Shown here: piece after piece, positions 41,378-46,212 of the stretch
Layout of the letters: every line of letters begins with the position of its first letter
Position numbering within the stretch: the first letter of the stretch is position 1
NCBI GenBank assembly: GCA_001780725.1
Contig: MFIM01000027.1
Coordinates: forward strand, 1 to 48,840
DNA: 48,840 nt
Direction of reading: 5' to 3'
From: Candidatus Giovannonibacteria bacterium RIFCSPLOWO2_02_FULL_45_28
Lineage (GTDB): Bacteria; Patescibacteriota; Minisyncoccia; UBA11713; 2-01-FULL-45-33
The notes under the pieces: model-generated
What the model was told of the DNA's origin: nothing
Database searches by the model: none
Seen by the model: the letters and a program-made list of their open reading frames with translations, nothing else
Made by a program: the position numbers and the translations under genes

Positions 41378-41993
41378 AAACTTATGGAAATTGATTTTGA
41401 TTGCGGCGCTGATTTTGGGTGCGGCGAGTTTCTATAAGTTTCAATTTATTTCCACAAGTTTCAATGATTCCAATGGCTCTCAACCAGTTTCAACCAATTT
41501 CAACGAATATCGCAACGCAGATTTCAAATTTTCTTTTCAGTATCCTAAAAACCTAACTCTCCAGGAATTTGATGATGAAAGGGGACATGTGATTTTGTTT
41601 GAGGCGAGCGGGAAAACATCCGATGTTGAATCCCCAAAAACATCGGATGTTGAGGAGCTCGCCGGCTTCCAAATTTTCATAGCTCCTTTCGACGAAGAAG
41701 GCCCAATAACTCCCGAACGCATAAAAAAAGACTTGCTTAATATTGTCGTGGAAAATCCAACTCCGACAAAAGTCGGCCCTTCGACAGGCTCAGGGCAAGC
41801 TGACGCTTTGAGTTTTGTCGGAGAAGGGGACCCGCCTACCGGCGAGGCAGGCGGCTTTAAAACCGCCGAGGTCTGGTTTGTTTATCCCCCCGAACCCTAC
41901 CCCAACGGAAATTATCTTTATCAAGTCACCGCGAAGCTGGAGGACGCAACTTTAATAGAAGAGATTTTGAAAACATGGAGATTTAGCCGCTGA
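41364..41993 (+). CDS. membrane-anchored PsbP-like hypothetical protein interrupted by palindromic insertions
   Basis: N-terminal TM; NADFKFSFQYPKNLTLQEF...AEVWFVYPPEPYPNGNYLYQVTAKLEDATLIEEILKTWRF. Confidence 0.6.
   Translation: MEISRNLWKLILIAALILGAASFYKFQFISTSFNDSNGSQPVSTNFNEYRNADFKFSFQYPKNLTLQEFDDERGHVILFEASGKTSDVESPKTSDVEELAGFQIFIAPFDEEGPITPERIKKDLLNIVVENPTPTKVGPSTGSGQADALSFVGEGDPPTGEAGGFKTAEVWFVYPPEPYPNGNYLYQVTAKLEDATLIEEILKTWRFSR
41603..41663. repeat. Composite palindromic element, copy B
   Basis: GGCGAG/CGGGAA/AACATCCGATGTT/GAATCCCCAAA/AACATCGGATGTT/GAGGAG/CTCGCC. Confidence 0.9.
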
Positions 41994-42466
41994 TACTTCG
42001 CTGATTACTACGCAGATAAAACGCTGATCTATGAAAAACAAAGTAAAATATTTTTTATACGAGAGGGAGTCCTACCTTATACGAGGGGCGTGTTTTGAGG
42101 TATGGAAAGAATTTAAAGGTATGTTTAAAGAATCGGTAATAGACCGCGCTCTAAACATCGCGCTTGAATCACGCGGCTTAAAAGTTGAATCGCAGAAGAG
42201 AATTGATATCTACTTTAAAGATAAAAAGGTGGGCACTTATGTTCCCGATAAAATTGTTGAAGGCAAGATTCTGCTCGAGTTAAAAGCAAAACCATTTATT
42301 ACTAAACAAGATATTGAACAATTTTGGAAGTACCTTAAGGGCTCACAATACAAACTTGGGTTTCTTATAAATTTTTCACCCACGAGATTACAAATTAAAC
42401 GCGTCGTATATGATACTGCCCGTAAATCAGCGTAAAATCAGCGTTTTTATCAGCATGATATCAGCG
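41988..42466 (+). mobile_element. candidate small mobile element: GxxExxY-like gene flanked by 41-bp inverted heptamer arrays
   Basis: CGCTGAT-type heptamers at 41988, 41999, 42011, 42022; ATCAGCG-type at 42426, 42437, 42449, 42460. Confidence 0.6.
42031..42435 (+). CDS. GxxExxY-like protein
   Basis: IRGACFEVWKEFKGMFKESVIDRALNIALESRGLKVESQKRIDIYFKDKKVGTYVPDKIVEGKILLELKA. Confidence 0.75.
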   Translation: MKNKVKYFLYERESYLIRGACFEVWKEFKGMFKESVIDRALNIALESRGLKVESQKRIDIYFKDKKVGTYVPDKIVEGKILLELKAKPFITKQDIEQFWKYLKGSQYKLGFLINFSPTRLQIKRVVYDTARKSA

Positions 42467-44593
42467 GTCGTTGTAGCCGCCTTTCTTTTTATCGTATCAC
42501 CCAATAGTGCGGCGGCCGCCTTACTCATAAATCGCCCCTTATATATCGGCTTAAATAGCGGCCTCGTCGGCTACTGGTCTTTTGATGGCCCGGATATGGC
42601 GAACGTCACCGCTTACGACCGCTCGGGTAACGCGAACAACGGCACTCTCACCAACGGCCCCACTCGAGCAGTAGGCAGAATCGGCCAGGCGCTGGAGTTT
42701 GACGGGGCAGATGACAGAGTTGATATCAGCTCCCCCAGTTTTAATGGCGCAGAACCATTTACAATCAGCGTATGGATAAAACCTGCGAGTTTGGGGGAAG
42801 GAAGTTTGGGACGCATTATGTCGTTTAATAATGCCACTACTGATGACTTAAGAATGGGTGTCGGTCCATTAGTAAATTTTTCCCCCAATGGTGGTGCGGG
42901 AGGGGATTGTGACTCTAACAATATTACTCTTAATGTTTGGGTTCATGTGGTGTTTACGCTTTCAAGCACAGGTGTTTGTACATTTTACATTGATGGAGTG
43001 AATCAAACTTTTGATAGTTCTGGTCAAACAATCGGGGCTTCAACAAGTTTTTCCATAGGAAATTTGGTAGGTGGCGTAACTAGAACTTTCGACGGTCCCA
43101 TTGACGAATTCCGTTTCTACAATCGCATCCTCTCCCCAGACGAAATAAAACGCCTCTATAAAATCGGGGCGACGCTGAAAGTCAATAAACCCAACTATGT
43201 GGGGTTGGATAACGGCCTCGTCGGCTATTGGTCTTTTGACGGGCCGGATATGGCGGGGAACACCGCGTACGATAGAAGCGGGCAAAACAACCACGTCTCT
43301 TCTACCGGGTCAAATATGCCTACTCGCTCGGCTGGAAAAATAGGGCAGGGACTGAAGTTCGACAATGCCAATGATTATATTGAGATTACTTCCTTTGCGC
43401 GCGGAGGCAACTTTACCTGGGCGGGATGGATTTTCCCCATAACCACCGGTGGGGGAGATAAAGGCAGACTATTCAATAATGGCATCACAGGGGCTATACA
43501 GGTTGGTTTGTATGTAAGCGGATCGCCTACACCATATATAGAATTAACAACCAATACTGGAGTATGGAGAAGCCCAAGTGGGAGCATAGAACTGAATAAA
43601 TGGCAACATGTAGCAGTTGTTTTTGATTCCACCTCTACGAATAACGATCCTGTTTTCTATATCAATGGATCTTTAGTATCAACATCGGAGTTTACTACGC
43701 CCACGAATACGCCATCGGACAATGTTTTGCTTACTATTGGAAATAATCCTAATACCGAGCTTACTAGGACCTTTGACGGAACTCTTGATGAAATGCGTGC
43801 CTACAACCGCGCGCTGTCGGCGGACGAAATCAAACGCCTCTACAAAATCGGGGCGACGCTGAAAGTAAATAAACCTAACTACGTGGGCTTAAATAGCGGC
43901 CTCGTCGGCTACTGGTCTTTTGACGGCCCGGATATGTACAACAACACCGCGCTTGACCGCTCCGGTCAGGGCAACAACGGCACGCTCACAAACGGCCCCA
44001 CGCGCAAAGTTGGCCGCATCGGCCAGGGGCTGGAGTTTGATGGGAGTAATGATTATGTGGATATTGCCAACGAAAGTAACTTTGATTTTGAGCGTACCCA
44101 ACCATTTTCATATTCTCTATGGACAAAACCTAAGGCTGGGGATACCAGTATTTCCTTAGCGCTTGGAAAAATTTTAGATTCTGGAAATTTCACTGGATGG
44201 GCACTTCTTACAAATTACGATTATAGTTCTAACACCGAAGTAGCCGGCAGATTAGCTGTAGCACTTGTCAATATCTCCGGTACCACAAATGCTATTGGTA
44301 TTGAGGCTGATTCAAAGATCAATGATGGAGGATGGCATCATTATACTGTTACATATGATGGTTCAAGCTTTGCAAGTGGTATAAAAATCTATGAAGATGG
44401 TATATCACTTGCTCTTAATGTTGCTTCTGATAGCCTTACCGGTTCGATACTTAATAACGTTAATGTAGAAATCGGTGATAGAGATAGTGGTGCGAGTTCC
44501 TTAAACTATCCCGGCCTTATCGACGAAGTCCGCATCTACAACCGCGCGCTTTCCGGCGATGAAATCAAGCGGCTCTATAATTTGGGACGGTAG
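42455..44593 (+). CDS. secreted protein with three LamG/concanavalin-A-like domains
   Basis: Signal peptide MISAVVVAAFLFIVSPNSAAAA; three GLVGYWSFDGPDM...RSG(N/Q)...VGRIGQ(A/G)LEFDG...IDE(F/V)R(F/I)YNR(I/A)LS modules. Confidence 0.88.
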   Translation: MISAVVVAAFLFIVSPNSAAAALLINRPLYIGLNSGLVGYWSFDGPDMANVTAYDRSGNANNGTLTNGPTRAVGRIGQALEFDGADDRVDISSPSFNGAEPFTISVWIKPASLGEGSLGRIMSFNNATTDDLRMGVGPLVNFSPNGGAGGDCDSNNITLNVWVHVVFTLSSTGVCTFYIDGVNQTFDSSGQTIGASTSFSIGNLVGGVTRTFDGPIDEFRFYNRILSPDEIKRLYKIGATLKVNKPNYVGLDNGLVGYWSFDGPDMAGNTAYDRSGQNNHVSSTGSNMPTRSAGKIGQGLKFDNANDYIEITSFARGGNFTWAGWIFPITTGGGDKGRLFNNGITGAIQVGLYVSGSPTPYIELTTNTGVWRSPSGSIELNKWQHVAVVFDSTSTNNDPVFYINGSLVSTSEFTTPTNTPSDNVLLTIGNNPNTELTRTFDGTLDEMRAYNRALSADEIKRLYKIGATLKVNKPNYVGLNSGLVGYWSFDGPDMYNNTALDRSGQGNNGTLTNGPTRKVGRIGQGLEFDGSNDYVDIANESNFDFERTQPFSYSLWTKPKAGDTSISLALGKILDSGNFTGWALLTNYDYSSNTEVAGRLAVALVNISGTTNAIGIEADSKINDGGWHHYTVTYDGSSFASGIKIYEDGISLALNVASDSLTGSILNNVNVEIGDRDSGASSLNYPGLIDEVRIYNRALSGDEIKRLYNLGR

Positions 44594-44625: not shown

Positions 44626-44823
44626 ATGTATAACTGGTCAACCGATATAAAAAACCTTAAAAAACACCCGGAAAAATATAAAATCTGGAGGCTTGAACAG
44701 ATGATAAATTTTGGTTTGAATGGTAAAAAATTGAAAGAATTTGAGCTTAATAAATATTTTAACAAACTCAAAATCGATCCGTATCGTCGTAAATTTTTAA
44801 AACTACTTTTGAATGGAAAGTAA
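44626..44823 (+). CDS. antitoxin-like partner of the nucleotidyltransferase toxin (module 1)
   Basis: 65-aa ORF overlapping an AbiEii-like gene; TGCTATAAT 6 nt upstream of ATG. Confidence 0.6.
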   Translation: MYNWSTDIKNLKKHPEKYKIWRLEQMINFGLNGKKLKEFELNKYFNKLKIDPYRRKFLKLLLNGK

Positions 44824-45469
44824 AATTTTAGACGAAAGGCAAATTAAATTTTTAGAAGAATTTCAAAAAATACCATTTTTGAAAGATAATTTTTATCTTA
44901 CCGGAGGGACGGCTCTTGCGGCTTTTTATCTCAAACATCGTTATTCGGAAGATTTGGATTTTTTTTCGGAAAAAGAAATAGATCTTTTAAATTTAGACAC
45001 GTCGTTAAAAAAACTTCAGAAAACATTAAAGCCGAATAAGGTTGATTTTCAGCAAAGCTATAATCGCAACTTATTTTTTTTGAGTTTCGGAAAACATATT
45101 TTAAAAACCGAATTTACTTATTTCCCATTCCTGAGAATAGACAGCAAGGTTTCAAAAAAAGGCATTTCTGTAGATAGCTTGATAGATATCGCGGTAAATA
45201 AGCTTTTTACCATATATCAGAGGGTTGCCGCGCGGGACTATATAGATTTGTATTTTATAATTGAGCGAGAAGACTTTAAAATTAACGACTTGATTTTGAA
45301 AGCTAAAGCAAAATTTGATTGGAATGTAGATCCTATACAGTTGGGGGCGCAATTTGTTAAATCCGGAGAAGCCGAAGATTTTCCAAGAATGATTGAGAAA
45401 ATCAAAACAGCTGTTTGGAGAAAATTTTTTATTGATGAAGCGAAAAAACTAAAGAGAAAAATTATTTAA
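44813..45469 (+). CDS. AbiEii/AbiGii-type nucleotidyltransferase toxin (module 1)
   Basis: FYLTGGTALAAFYLKHRYSEDLDFFSE; DSLIDIAVNKLFTIYQRVAARDYIDLYFII. Confidence 0.85.
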   Translation: MESKILDERQIKFLEEFQKIPFLKDNFYLTGGTALAAFYLKHRYSEDLDFFSEKEIDLLNLDTSLKKLQKTLKPNKVDFQQSYNRNLFFLSFGKHILKTEFTYFPFLRIDSKVSKKGISVDSLIDIAVNKLFTIYQRVAARDYIDLYFIIEREDFKINDLILKAKAKFDWNVDPIQLGAQFVKSGEAEDFPRMIEKIKTAVWRKFFIDEAKKLKRKII

Positions 45470-45470
45470 T

Positions 45471-45551
45471 GGCCTCATCGACGATGTCCGCGTCTACAAC
45501 AGGGCGCTTAATGGGAACGAGATTAAGAGATTGTATAATTTGGGGAGATAG
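45471..45551 (+). pseudogene. orphan LamG C-terminal fragment 1
   Basis: Translates GLIDDVRVYNRALNGNEIKRLYNLGR*; compare GLIDEVRIYNRALSGDEIKRLYNLGR* at 44593. Confidence 0.85.
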
Positions 45552-45583
45552 ATTTTTACTCAAATGCATGCTATAATAAGGGC

Positions 45584-45817
45584 ATGATTCCATCCAACAT
45601 TAAGCGGTATTTTTGGGAAGTAGATACGGAAAAACTTAATCCCAAGAAGCGTCCGGAATATATTATTTCGCGGCTATTAGAATACGGCAGGCCCGACGCG
45701 ATCCGCTGGGCATGGAGGTCTTTTTCTAAAAAAGAATGGGGAAAGGCGTTAAAATTACGTGAGGTGTCAAGGAAAAGCAAAAATTTTTGGTTGCCGTTTT
45801 TGTCTAATAAACAATGA
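45584..45817 (+). CDS. antitoxin-like partner (module 2), DUF6922-like
   Basis: IKRYFWEVDTEKLNPKKRPEYIISRLLEYGRPDAIRWAW; TGCTATAAT 6 nt upstream of ATG. Confidence 0.65.
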   Translation: MIPSNIKRYFWEVDTEKLNPKKRPEYIISRLLEYGRPDAIRWAWRSFSKKEWGKALKLREVSRKSKNFWLPFLSNKQ

Positions 45818-46212
45818 ATTTTTCTTTGGAAAATATCAGGCCCAATGTCAGGGCTCTGGCGGAAAAATTAAGCGCCAAAAGTTTTATTAGTAAGTTTTAT
45901 TTGGCGGGCGGAACTGCTATCGCACTATTTTTTAATCATAGGCGTTCTGACGATTTAGACTTTTTTTCGGAAAAAATGTTTAAAGGAGTGGCTTTGATAA
46001 ACAATTTAAAAAAAACAGGTAAATTCGAAACACTCAAAACAGACGAAAACACCTTAATCGGCAAATTAAATGGCGTCAAAAGTCTTGCTTATTTTAATGA
46101 CGCAGAATACGATGAAATGCCAGAAATGTATATTGATATTAAATGGCGGGAGGTAAAAAATTTTTTCTTGAAACAAAAGTTGGTTTTAGCCAAAAAGTTC
46201 TTCGGAATTTAA
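45814..46212 (+). pseudogene. internally deleted AbiEii-type nucleotidyltransferase (module 2)
   Basis: FYLAGGTAIALFFNHRRSDDLDFFSEK present, then jumps from KLNGVKSL to AYFNDAEYDEMPEMYIDIKWREVKNFF; 132 aa versus 218 aa in module 1. Confidence 0.6.

Follow-up and report, generated by a model that had tools for sequence, protein, structure and literature searches.

GxxExxY genes between mirrored arrays of 7-bp boxes: a probable minimal mobile element in Patescibacteria

Introduction

GxxExxY genes of Patescibacteria lie between mirrored arrays of 7-bp boxes, and we consider it probable that such a unit is a minimal selfish mobile element, with the arrays as its ends and a sole gene encoding a nuclease that recognizes its own version of the box. 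Comparison of the sequences of many loci shows the mobility, the ends and the miniatures: the arrays bound the unit, units occur at unrelated places, element-free sites exist, and gene-less forms with common ends are dispersed. From these comparisons we infer that the GxxExxY nuclease would be the mobilizing enzyme. The element that we describe in detail comes from an uncultured Candidatus Giovannonibacteria bacterium (contig MFIM01000027.1); the whole stretch analysed, 48,840 nucleotides, is referred to as the window. The genomes compared are draft metagenome assemblies, and no recent jump was caught in this species-level set.

Results

All eight heptamers described in the earlier note are present at its positions (Table 1). 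The ends are inverted repeats, as it had claimed: the arms at 41987-42031 and 42423-42467 are 73% complementary across 45 nt. Its placement of the gene's start 2 nt inside the left array and of the stop within the right array also agrees with the codon positions. The start codon at 42031 is 2 nt past the last left box, and the stop codon (42433-42435) abuts the first right box, which forms the last codons of the gene. The boxes recur about once per helical turn. By contrast with these claims, the label "PsbP-like" for the upstream gene has no support in Pfam or NCBIfam.

Table 1. The window element and the genes on either side of it (positions in the window)
Feature	Position	Strand	Details
Whole element, outer box to outer box (CCGCTGAT ... 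ATCAGCGG)	41987..42467		Mirror arms; aligned with arms of related elements
Left array, spacing 11-12-11	41988..42028	+	CGCTGAT 41988, CGCTGAT 41999, CGCAGAT 42011, CGCTGAT 42022
Right array	42426..42466	-	Boxes (- strand reading) at 42460, 42449, 42437, 42426; 11-12-11 from outside to inside
GxxExxY gene, 134 aa, predicted PD-(D/E)XK nuclease	42031..42435	+	TIGR04256, PF13366, invariant columns, structure model
Upstream host ORF, 209 aa	41364..41993	+	TGA stop 41991-41993 within first left box
Downstream LamG-domain gene	42455..44593	+	Likely start ATG 42455, within right array; ORF also open from 42410

Both neighbouring genes meet the element. The orthologue of the upstream ORF in a sister-genus genome, G290, ends elsewhere. 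The LamG gene probably starts inside the right array, and in its G290 orthologue the N-terminus differs and is encoded by another element's array. The arrays are not a product of chance, since the window has 16 occurrences of CGCTGAT where 5.4 are expected, the observed count being reached in 0 of 100 shuffles, and since chains of at least four regularly spaced boxes of the family consensus YRCNRAW occur exactly once per strand in the window, facing each other, with no such facing pair in 100 dinucleotide shuffles.

The window has other features. The upstream ORF carries at 41605-41661 a member of another palindromic repeat family (AACATCCGATGTT..AACATCGGATGTT; in-frame translation KTSDVESPKTSDVE) that has numerous similar copies in genomes of the family, and at 41761-41823 an inverted repeat (CTCCGACAAAAGTC / GAGTTTTGTCGGAG) around a GPSTGSGQA-type repeat. 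Two consecutive AbiEii-type nucleotidyltransferase genes lie at 44813-46212; the second is short and a DUF6922 gene stands before it, and these are candidate toxin-antitoxin pairs.

A survey of 286 Patescibacteria genomes found GxxExxY genes in 45, with up to nine per genome, and 94 GxxExxY loci with usable flanks were used for tests of the arrays. In a motif-free test, the left flank was locally aligned with the reverse complement of the right flank. The mean score was 23.4 for true pairs and 12.0 (sd 3.1) for mispaired flanks, and a flank's own partner ranked first in 55/94 cases and in the top three in 77/94. Distal flanks 700-900 bp away scored 11.2, and the mean for 250 ordinary ORFs from the same loci was also 11.2. 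The degenerate 7-bp consensus YRCNRAW was found by inspection and then counted on the same loci: there are 281 boxes on the left and 290 mirrored boxes on the right, whereas wrong-strand counts are 49 and 67 and distal sites give 71 and 63. These controls use the same consensus, and the flank-pairing test is motif-free. At loci of four-helix-bundle genes, discussed below, YRCNRAW is at background level. An array usually has four boxes, and the mirrored spacing takes values such as 7-10-9-7 (locus L053) and 8-9-9-10 (L094) besides the 11-12-11 of the window.

Hence, other GxxExxY genes also have the flanking inverted arrays that the earlier note described for one. Its ATCAGCG array is real in the window but is not family-wide; each element has its own version of YRCNRAW with its own mirrored spacing. 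Box type differs among elements within one genome and tracks protein similarity across genomes (Mantel r 0.39, p 0.001), a correlation that common descent of the gene and its ends alone could give. Outside Patescibacteria, a Gemmatirosa plasmid (L180) has a hairpin of CGCGGAT boxes downstream of a GxxExxY gene, and a Treponema plasmid (L181) has short AACACGGATTCG ends, which suggests that the array trait is not confined to one phylum.

The window protein matches the profiles TIGR04256 (GxxExxY; 97 bits, cut-off 35, E 8.8e-28) and PF13366 (PDDEXK_3; 95.6 bits, cut-off 22, E 3.4e-27). These are its only domain matches; none is to a transposase domain of the DDE, HUH, serine or tyrosine type. 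The motif set of RecB/Cas4-type PD-(D/E)XK nucleases (E, D, E-x-K, QxxxY) is present: across 86 copies, E34, K85, Q97 and Y101 (window numbering) are invariant, and D73 and E83 are each kept in at least 90%. The structure model has a pLDDT of 90. Its best PDB matches by Foldseek are Cas4 SSO0001, which is the nearest, LHK-Exo, lambda exonuclease and MGME1 (E 4e-4), at modest TM scores of 0.3-0.5; the PDB holds no sequence-level relative. The profiles, the conserved motif residues and the fold model lead us to predict a RecB/Cas4-like PD-(D/E)XK nuclease core, consistent with the nuclease-type product suggested from the window alone. For the closest GxxExxY copies dN/dS is low (0.03-0.07 where dS is estimable), with dS near saturation. 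Filing the gene as a defence system was dropped because PADLOC gave no defence-system match.

Gene-less miniatures are 70-111 bp long, non-coding and multicopy, and their boxes and spacing match a coding element of the same genome. In family f36, CTACKAAATACKAAA occurs up to 34 times per genome (0-1 for the reversed control), often in pairs 70-111 bp apart. The spacing of the genome's coding element recurs in the miniatures of G112 (7-10-9) and of G210 and G245 (7-16, or 7-9-7 with a degenerate third box). Such solo-array sites are found in 10/16 genomes with GxxExxY and in 0/6 without it (Fisher p 0.015, without correction for kinship). G000, the genome of the window itself, has 25 triple CGCNGA arrays against one in the control. 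Complete miniatures with spacing 10-11-10 lie in frame inside gatB, recG, tsaD and lepA of this genome, and half-arrays lie in polX and mfd. The recG miniature and a coding insert in G210 occupy the same RecG loop, at about position 510 of NF008168, and the right arm of the lepA miniature has 35/38 nt in common with the lepA coding unit, spacers included. At least one triple-array match is found in 8/10 genomes of f1. Triple arrays are clear in G000, G289, G292 and G293, all of which have a GxxExxY gene.

Some observations count against a mobile nuclease. G291 has clear triple arrays without the gene, and G294 has the gene without CGCNGA miniatures. No consistent target-site duplication was seen in 12 miniatures. 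Some IS families lack target-site duplications.

Three accounts of the repeats were set aside. A single window-wide heptamer does not describe the genome, where pairs of CGCNGAT elsewhere are due to chance and the miniatures use CGCAGA-type boxes. Lateral transfer of the whole of lepA between G000 and G292 was rejected, as the excess similarity is mainly in the miniature and its immediate surroundings and the remaining LepA follows species relationships. Nor do we claim a long co-conversion tract at the lepA miniature: only ~25 nt upstream are unusually alike, and the downstream identity is partly common to all relatives. Separately, a miniature at a gene start in G289 (L286) appears to supply a signal peptide.

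Neighbourhoods of the coding units differ. The nearest relatives of the window gene (74-83% identity, tblastn) lie in three unrelated neighbourhoods with the same array type. At the window's site, G290 has no GxxExxY gene and carries a four-helix-bundle gene (TIGR02436) with its own arrays. The interval between a KH gene and trmD holds a GxxExxY unit in G292 and a short spacer only in G290. Between purN and purD there is a unit in G210, only about 60-77 bp with a hairpin in G295 and G297, and unrelated ORFs in G298 and G245. The arrays, too, are absent from empty orthologous loci, namely trmD (G290), purN-purD (G295, G297) and lepA (eight relatives). Together, the arrays as ends, the other neighbourhoods and the element-free sites support the single-gene mobile unit proposed in the earlier note. 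The four-helix-bundle unit of G290 spans 684-1055 of L104, and its right array codes for the LamG protein's signal peptide. Elsewhere, a GxxExxY unit has a four-helix-bundle unit no more than about 2 kb away (G079:C20, G126:C3 and G093:C3), as if at common insertion hot spots.

Some coding units lie inside host genes. In LepA of G000 and G292, a GxxExxY domain is inserted in frame between QPVRM and ILNLIDTPGH; the ERERG-to-DTPGH stretch is uninterrupted, at 30-38 aa, in LepA of eight relatives. The identical LepA site is used in family f61 (G126, G159 and G070). RecG of G210, at 866 aa, has GxxExxY in frame as well. In both LepA and RecG, TIGR04256 and the host-family profiles match within single open frames. 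The boxes in these frames encode polar residues with no stops (e.g. RRITQNETRNNAEQE, QRNSASSLRESAA), which would explain the success of in-frame insertion. The lepA inserts of f61 (L020, L021 and L022) are all in frame, and L021 and L022 have right arrays that are decayed or missing, which suggests fixation or domestication. At L017, L051 and L090, GxxExxY reads in frame into a downstream host ORF to give fused proteins (at L090, with a RuvX-like start).

Discussion

How might such an element move? We propose that several copies of the protein would bind each arm, and that the bound protein would draw the two ends together and cut at the ends or close to them. Insertion would be completed by host repair, and the miniatures would be moved in trans by the same machinery. 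Insertion would be tolerated in intergenic spacers, where a fresh stop or start codon could come from box sequence, and in loops of proteins, where boxes could be read as polar, stop-free linkers. Activity may be low, since intact coding copies within one genome have diverged. We also put forward a broader proposal, tentatively and with slightly less than even confidence: that these are a new class of transposable element, found widely in Patescibacteria and also in other phyla, whose sole protein is a Cas4-like nuclease reading evolvable 7-bp boxes. Box sequence and spacing would diversify with the protein, the boxes would double as DNA ends and as stop-free polar linkers that allow in-frame lodging in essential genes, and the four-helix-bundle units would represent a second, parallel class using a box code of its own.

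The four-helix-bundle units call for caution in giving catalysis to the GxxExxY protein, since they share the inverted-array architecture without a nuclease domain. Genes for this 23S-IVS-type protein are found in 85/145 genomes. Their flanks score 20.7 when paired and 11.5 when mispaired, with the own partner first in 20/30, and their box vocabulary (TAGCTT, GTAGTT or CAGTGA) differs from that of GxxExxY. Solo arrays of this type recur, and one such unit occupies the window's orthologous site in G290. Hence, a shared third factor, host or mobile, could move both classes of unit; the arrays would still be the ends of mobile elements, and the encoded proteins would be adaptors, protectors or passengers. 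We consider this explanation rather unlikely. The residues E, D, E/D, K, Q and Y are kept in nearly all GxxExxY copies, box type tracks protein family as well as protein similarity, and no shared enzyme was identified.

The repeated use of particular sites raises a different possibility, that the element is of a homing type, cutting element-free alleles and being copied by homologous recombination at fixed sites such as lepA and recG, with only rare jumps to new sites. The lepA site is occupied in both f1 and f61, one RecG loop holds a coding element in one genome (G210) and a miniature in another (G000), and the lepA miniatures of two genera are near-identical although the greater part of the host gene has diverged far more. 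However, most units occupy unrelated intergenic sites that have no target in common, the sequences flanking the lepA coding inserts reflect vertical descent rather than co-conversion, and the boxes travel with the element and do not mark the empty site. Thus, a homing-type element is in our judgement improbable.

Are the boxes recognized by a protein, or do the arms pair with each other? The two arms are complementary, and known 23S rRNA intervening sequences (IVSs) have terminal stems that are cut by RNase III (PMC4990558), so the arrays could be RNA or DNA stem-loops serving as IVS-like processing signals, terminators or attenuators. A stem predicts that boxes at mirrored positions resemble each other more than other boxes do. 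Among 24 loci whose mirrored spacing is identical, agreement is 0.906 for boxes and only 0.478 for spacers, and mirrored pairs of boxes match no better than non-mirrored pairs (0.906 vs 0.903; 0.61 vs 0.62 for the free fourth base), in a test that is conditioned on the consensus except at the fourth base. Within one arm, the boxes repeat in direct orientation as well, and in the in-frame copies an open frame, which processing would destroy, runs through both arms. The absence of box co-variation and the kept reading frames led us to reject a base-paired stem with IVS-like processing, and we regard stem-loops of any of these kinds as very unlikely; the boxes look like repeated recognition sites for a protein. 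That the arrays are only operators for autoregulation of the nuclease gene, which they closely flank, is hardly credible given their mirrored orientation at both ends, the gene-less copies inside unrelated essential genes, and the sites that lack both gene and arrays.

The element that we favour, mirrored arrays around a nuclease gene, resembles several known systems in part. Like insertion sequences and their MITEs, it has one gene between inverted ends and gene-less derivatives with the same ends, but the gene encodes a predicted 134-aa RecB/Cas4-like PD-(D/E)XK nuclease, the ends are box arrays, and no consistent duplication was seen. A second parallel is with Rickettsia palindromic elements (RPEs), which are about 150 bp long and for which we know of no mobilizing enzyme. 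RPEs of Rickettsia are small repeats that are tolerated in frame in conserved protein genes, and similar repeats possibly exist in other prokaryotes (MITE review, PMC10969869). The miniatures described here share this placement of small repeated units; their mirror-spaced arrays, and a nuclease-coding counterpart with the same ends and sites, set them apart from RPEs as described. The IVSs of 23S rRNA that carry the S23p/IVP gene are likewise small single-gene units with inverted terminal arms, and their protein family also forms array-bounded units in Patescibacteria, but GxxExxY is an unrelated protein, with another box vocabulary, found outside rRNA. The origin of IVSs has been called unclear (PMC4990558). 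As with homing endonuclease genes and inteins, a small nuclease gene lies in conserved genes, with a patchy distribution and one site occupied repeatedly. In contrast to those, there is no splicing domain or intron, the insert consists of nuclease and arrays only, the LepA and RecG frames run through it, and the recognition boxes are within the element. Finally, the predicted fold and the motifs E, D, ExK and QxxxY are those of Cas4 and RecB-family exonucleases, but the TM scores are only 0.3-0.5, there is no PDB relative at the sequence level, and no Cas neighbours were seen in the window.

In the literature that we found naming GxxExxY, it appears as a myRT annotation beside a reverse transcriptase whose neighbour was otherwise called cas4 (PMC8934634) and as an algal-virus gene (PMC12085832); neither paper treats its mobility. 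Our searches found nothing on the repeat sequences or on PDDEXK_3, and no description of such an element, although the curators of TIGR04256 may have noted flanking repeats. We conclude that the arrays and the nuclease gene probably form a kind of mobile DNA that the literature we searched does not describe.

What is the significance of these elements? A family annotated only as "GxxExxY protein" gains a testable role, as the candidate mobilizing enzyme of selfish DNA with in-frame insertion into protein genes; we know of no other mobilizer for such DNA. Our data also suggest that the four-helix-bundle protein of 23S rRNA intervening sequences is part of a larger group of mobile units bounded by arrays. 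In their matched boxes and spacings, these elements offer a natural record of how protein recognizes DNA, and this record could be decoded.
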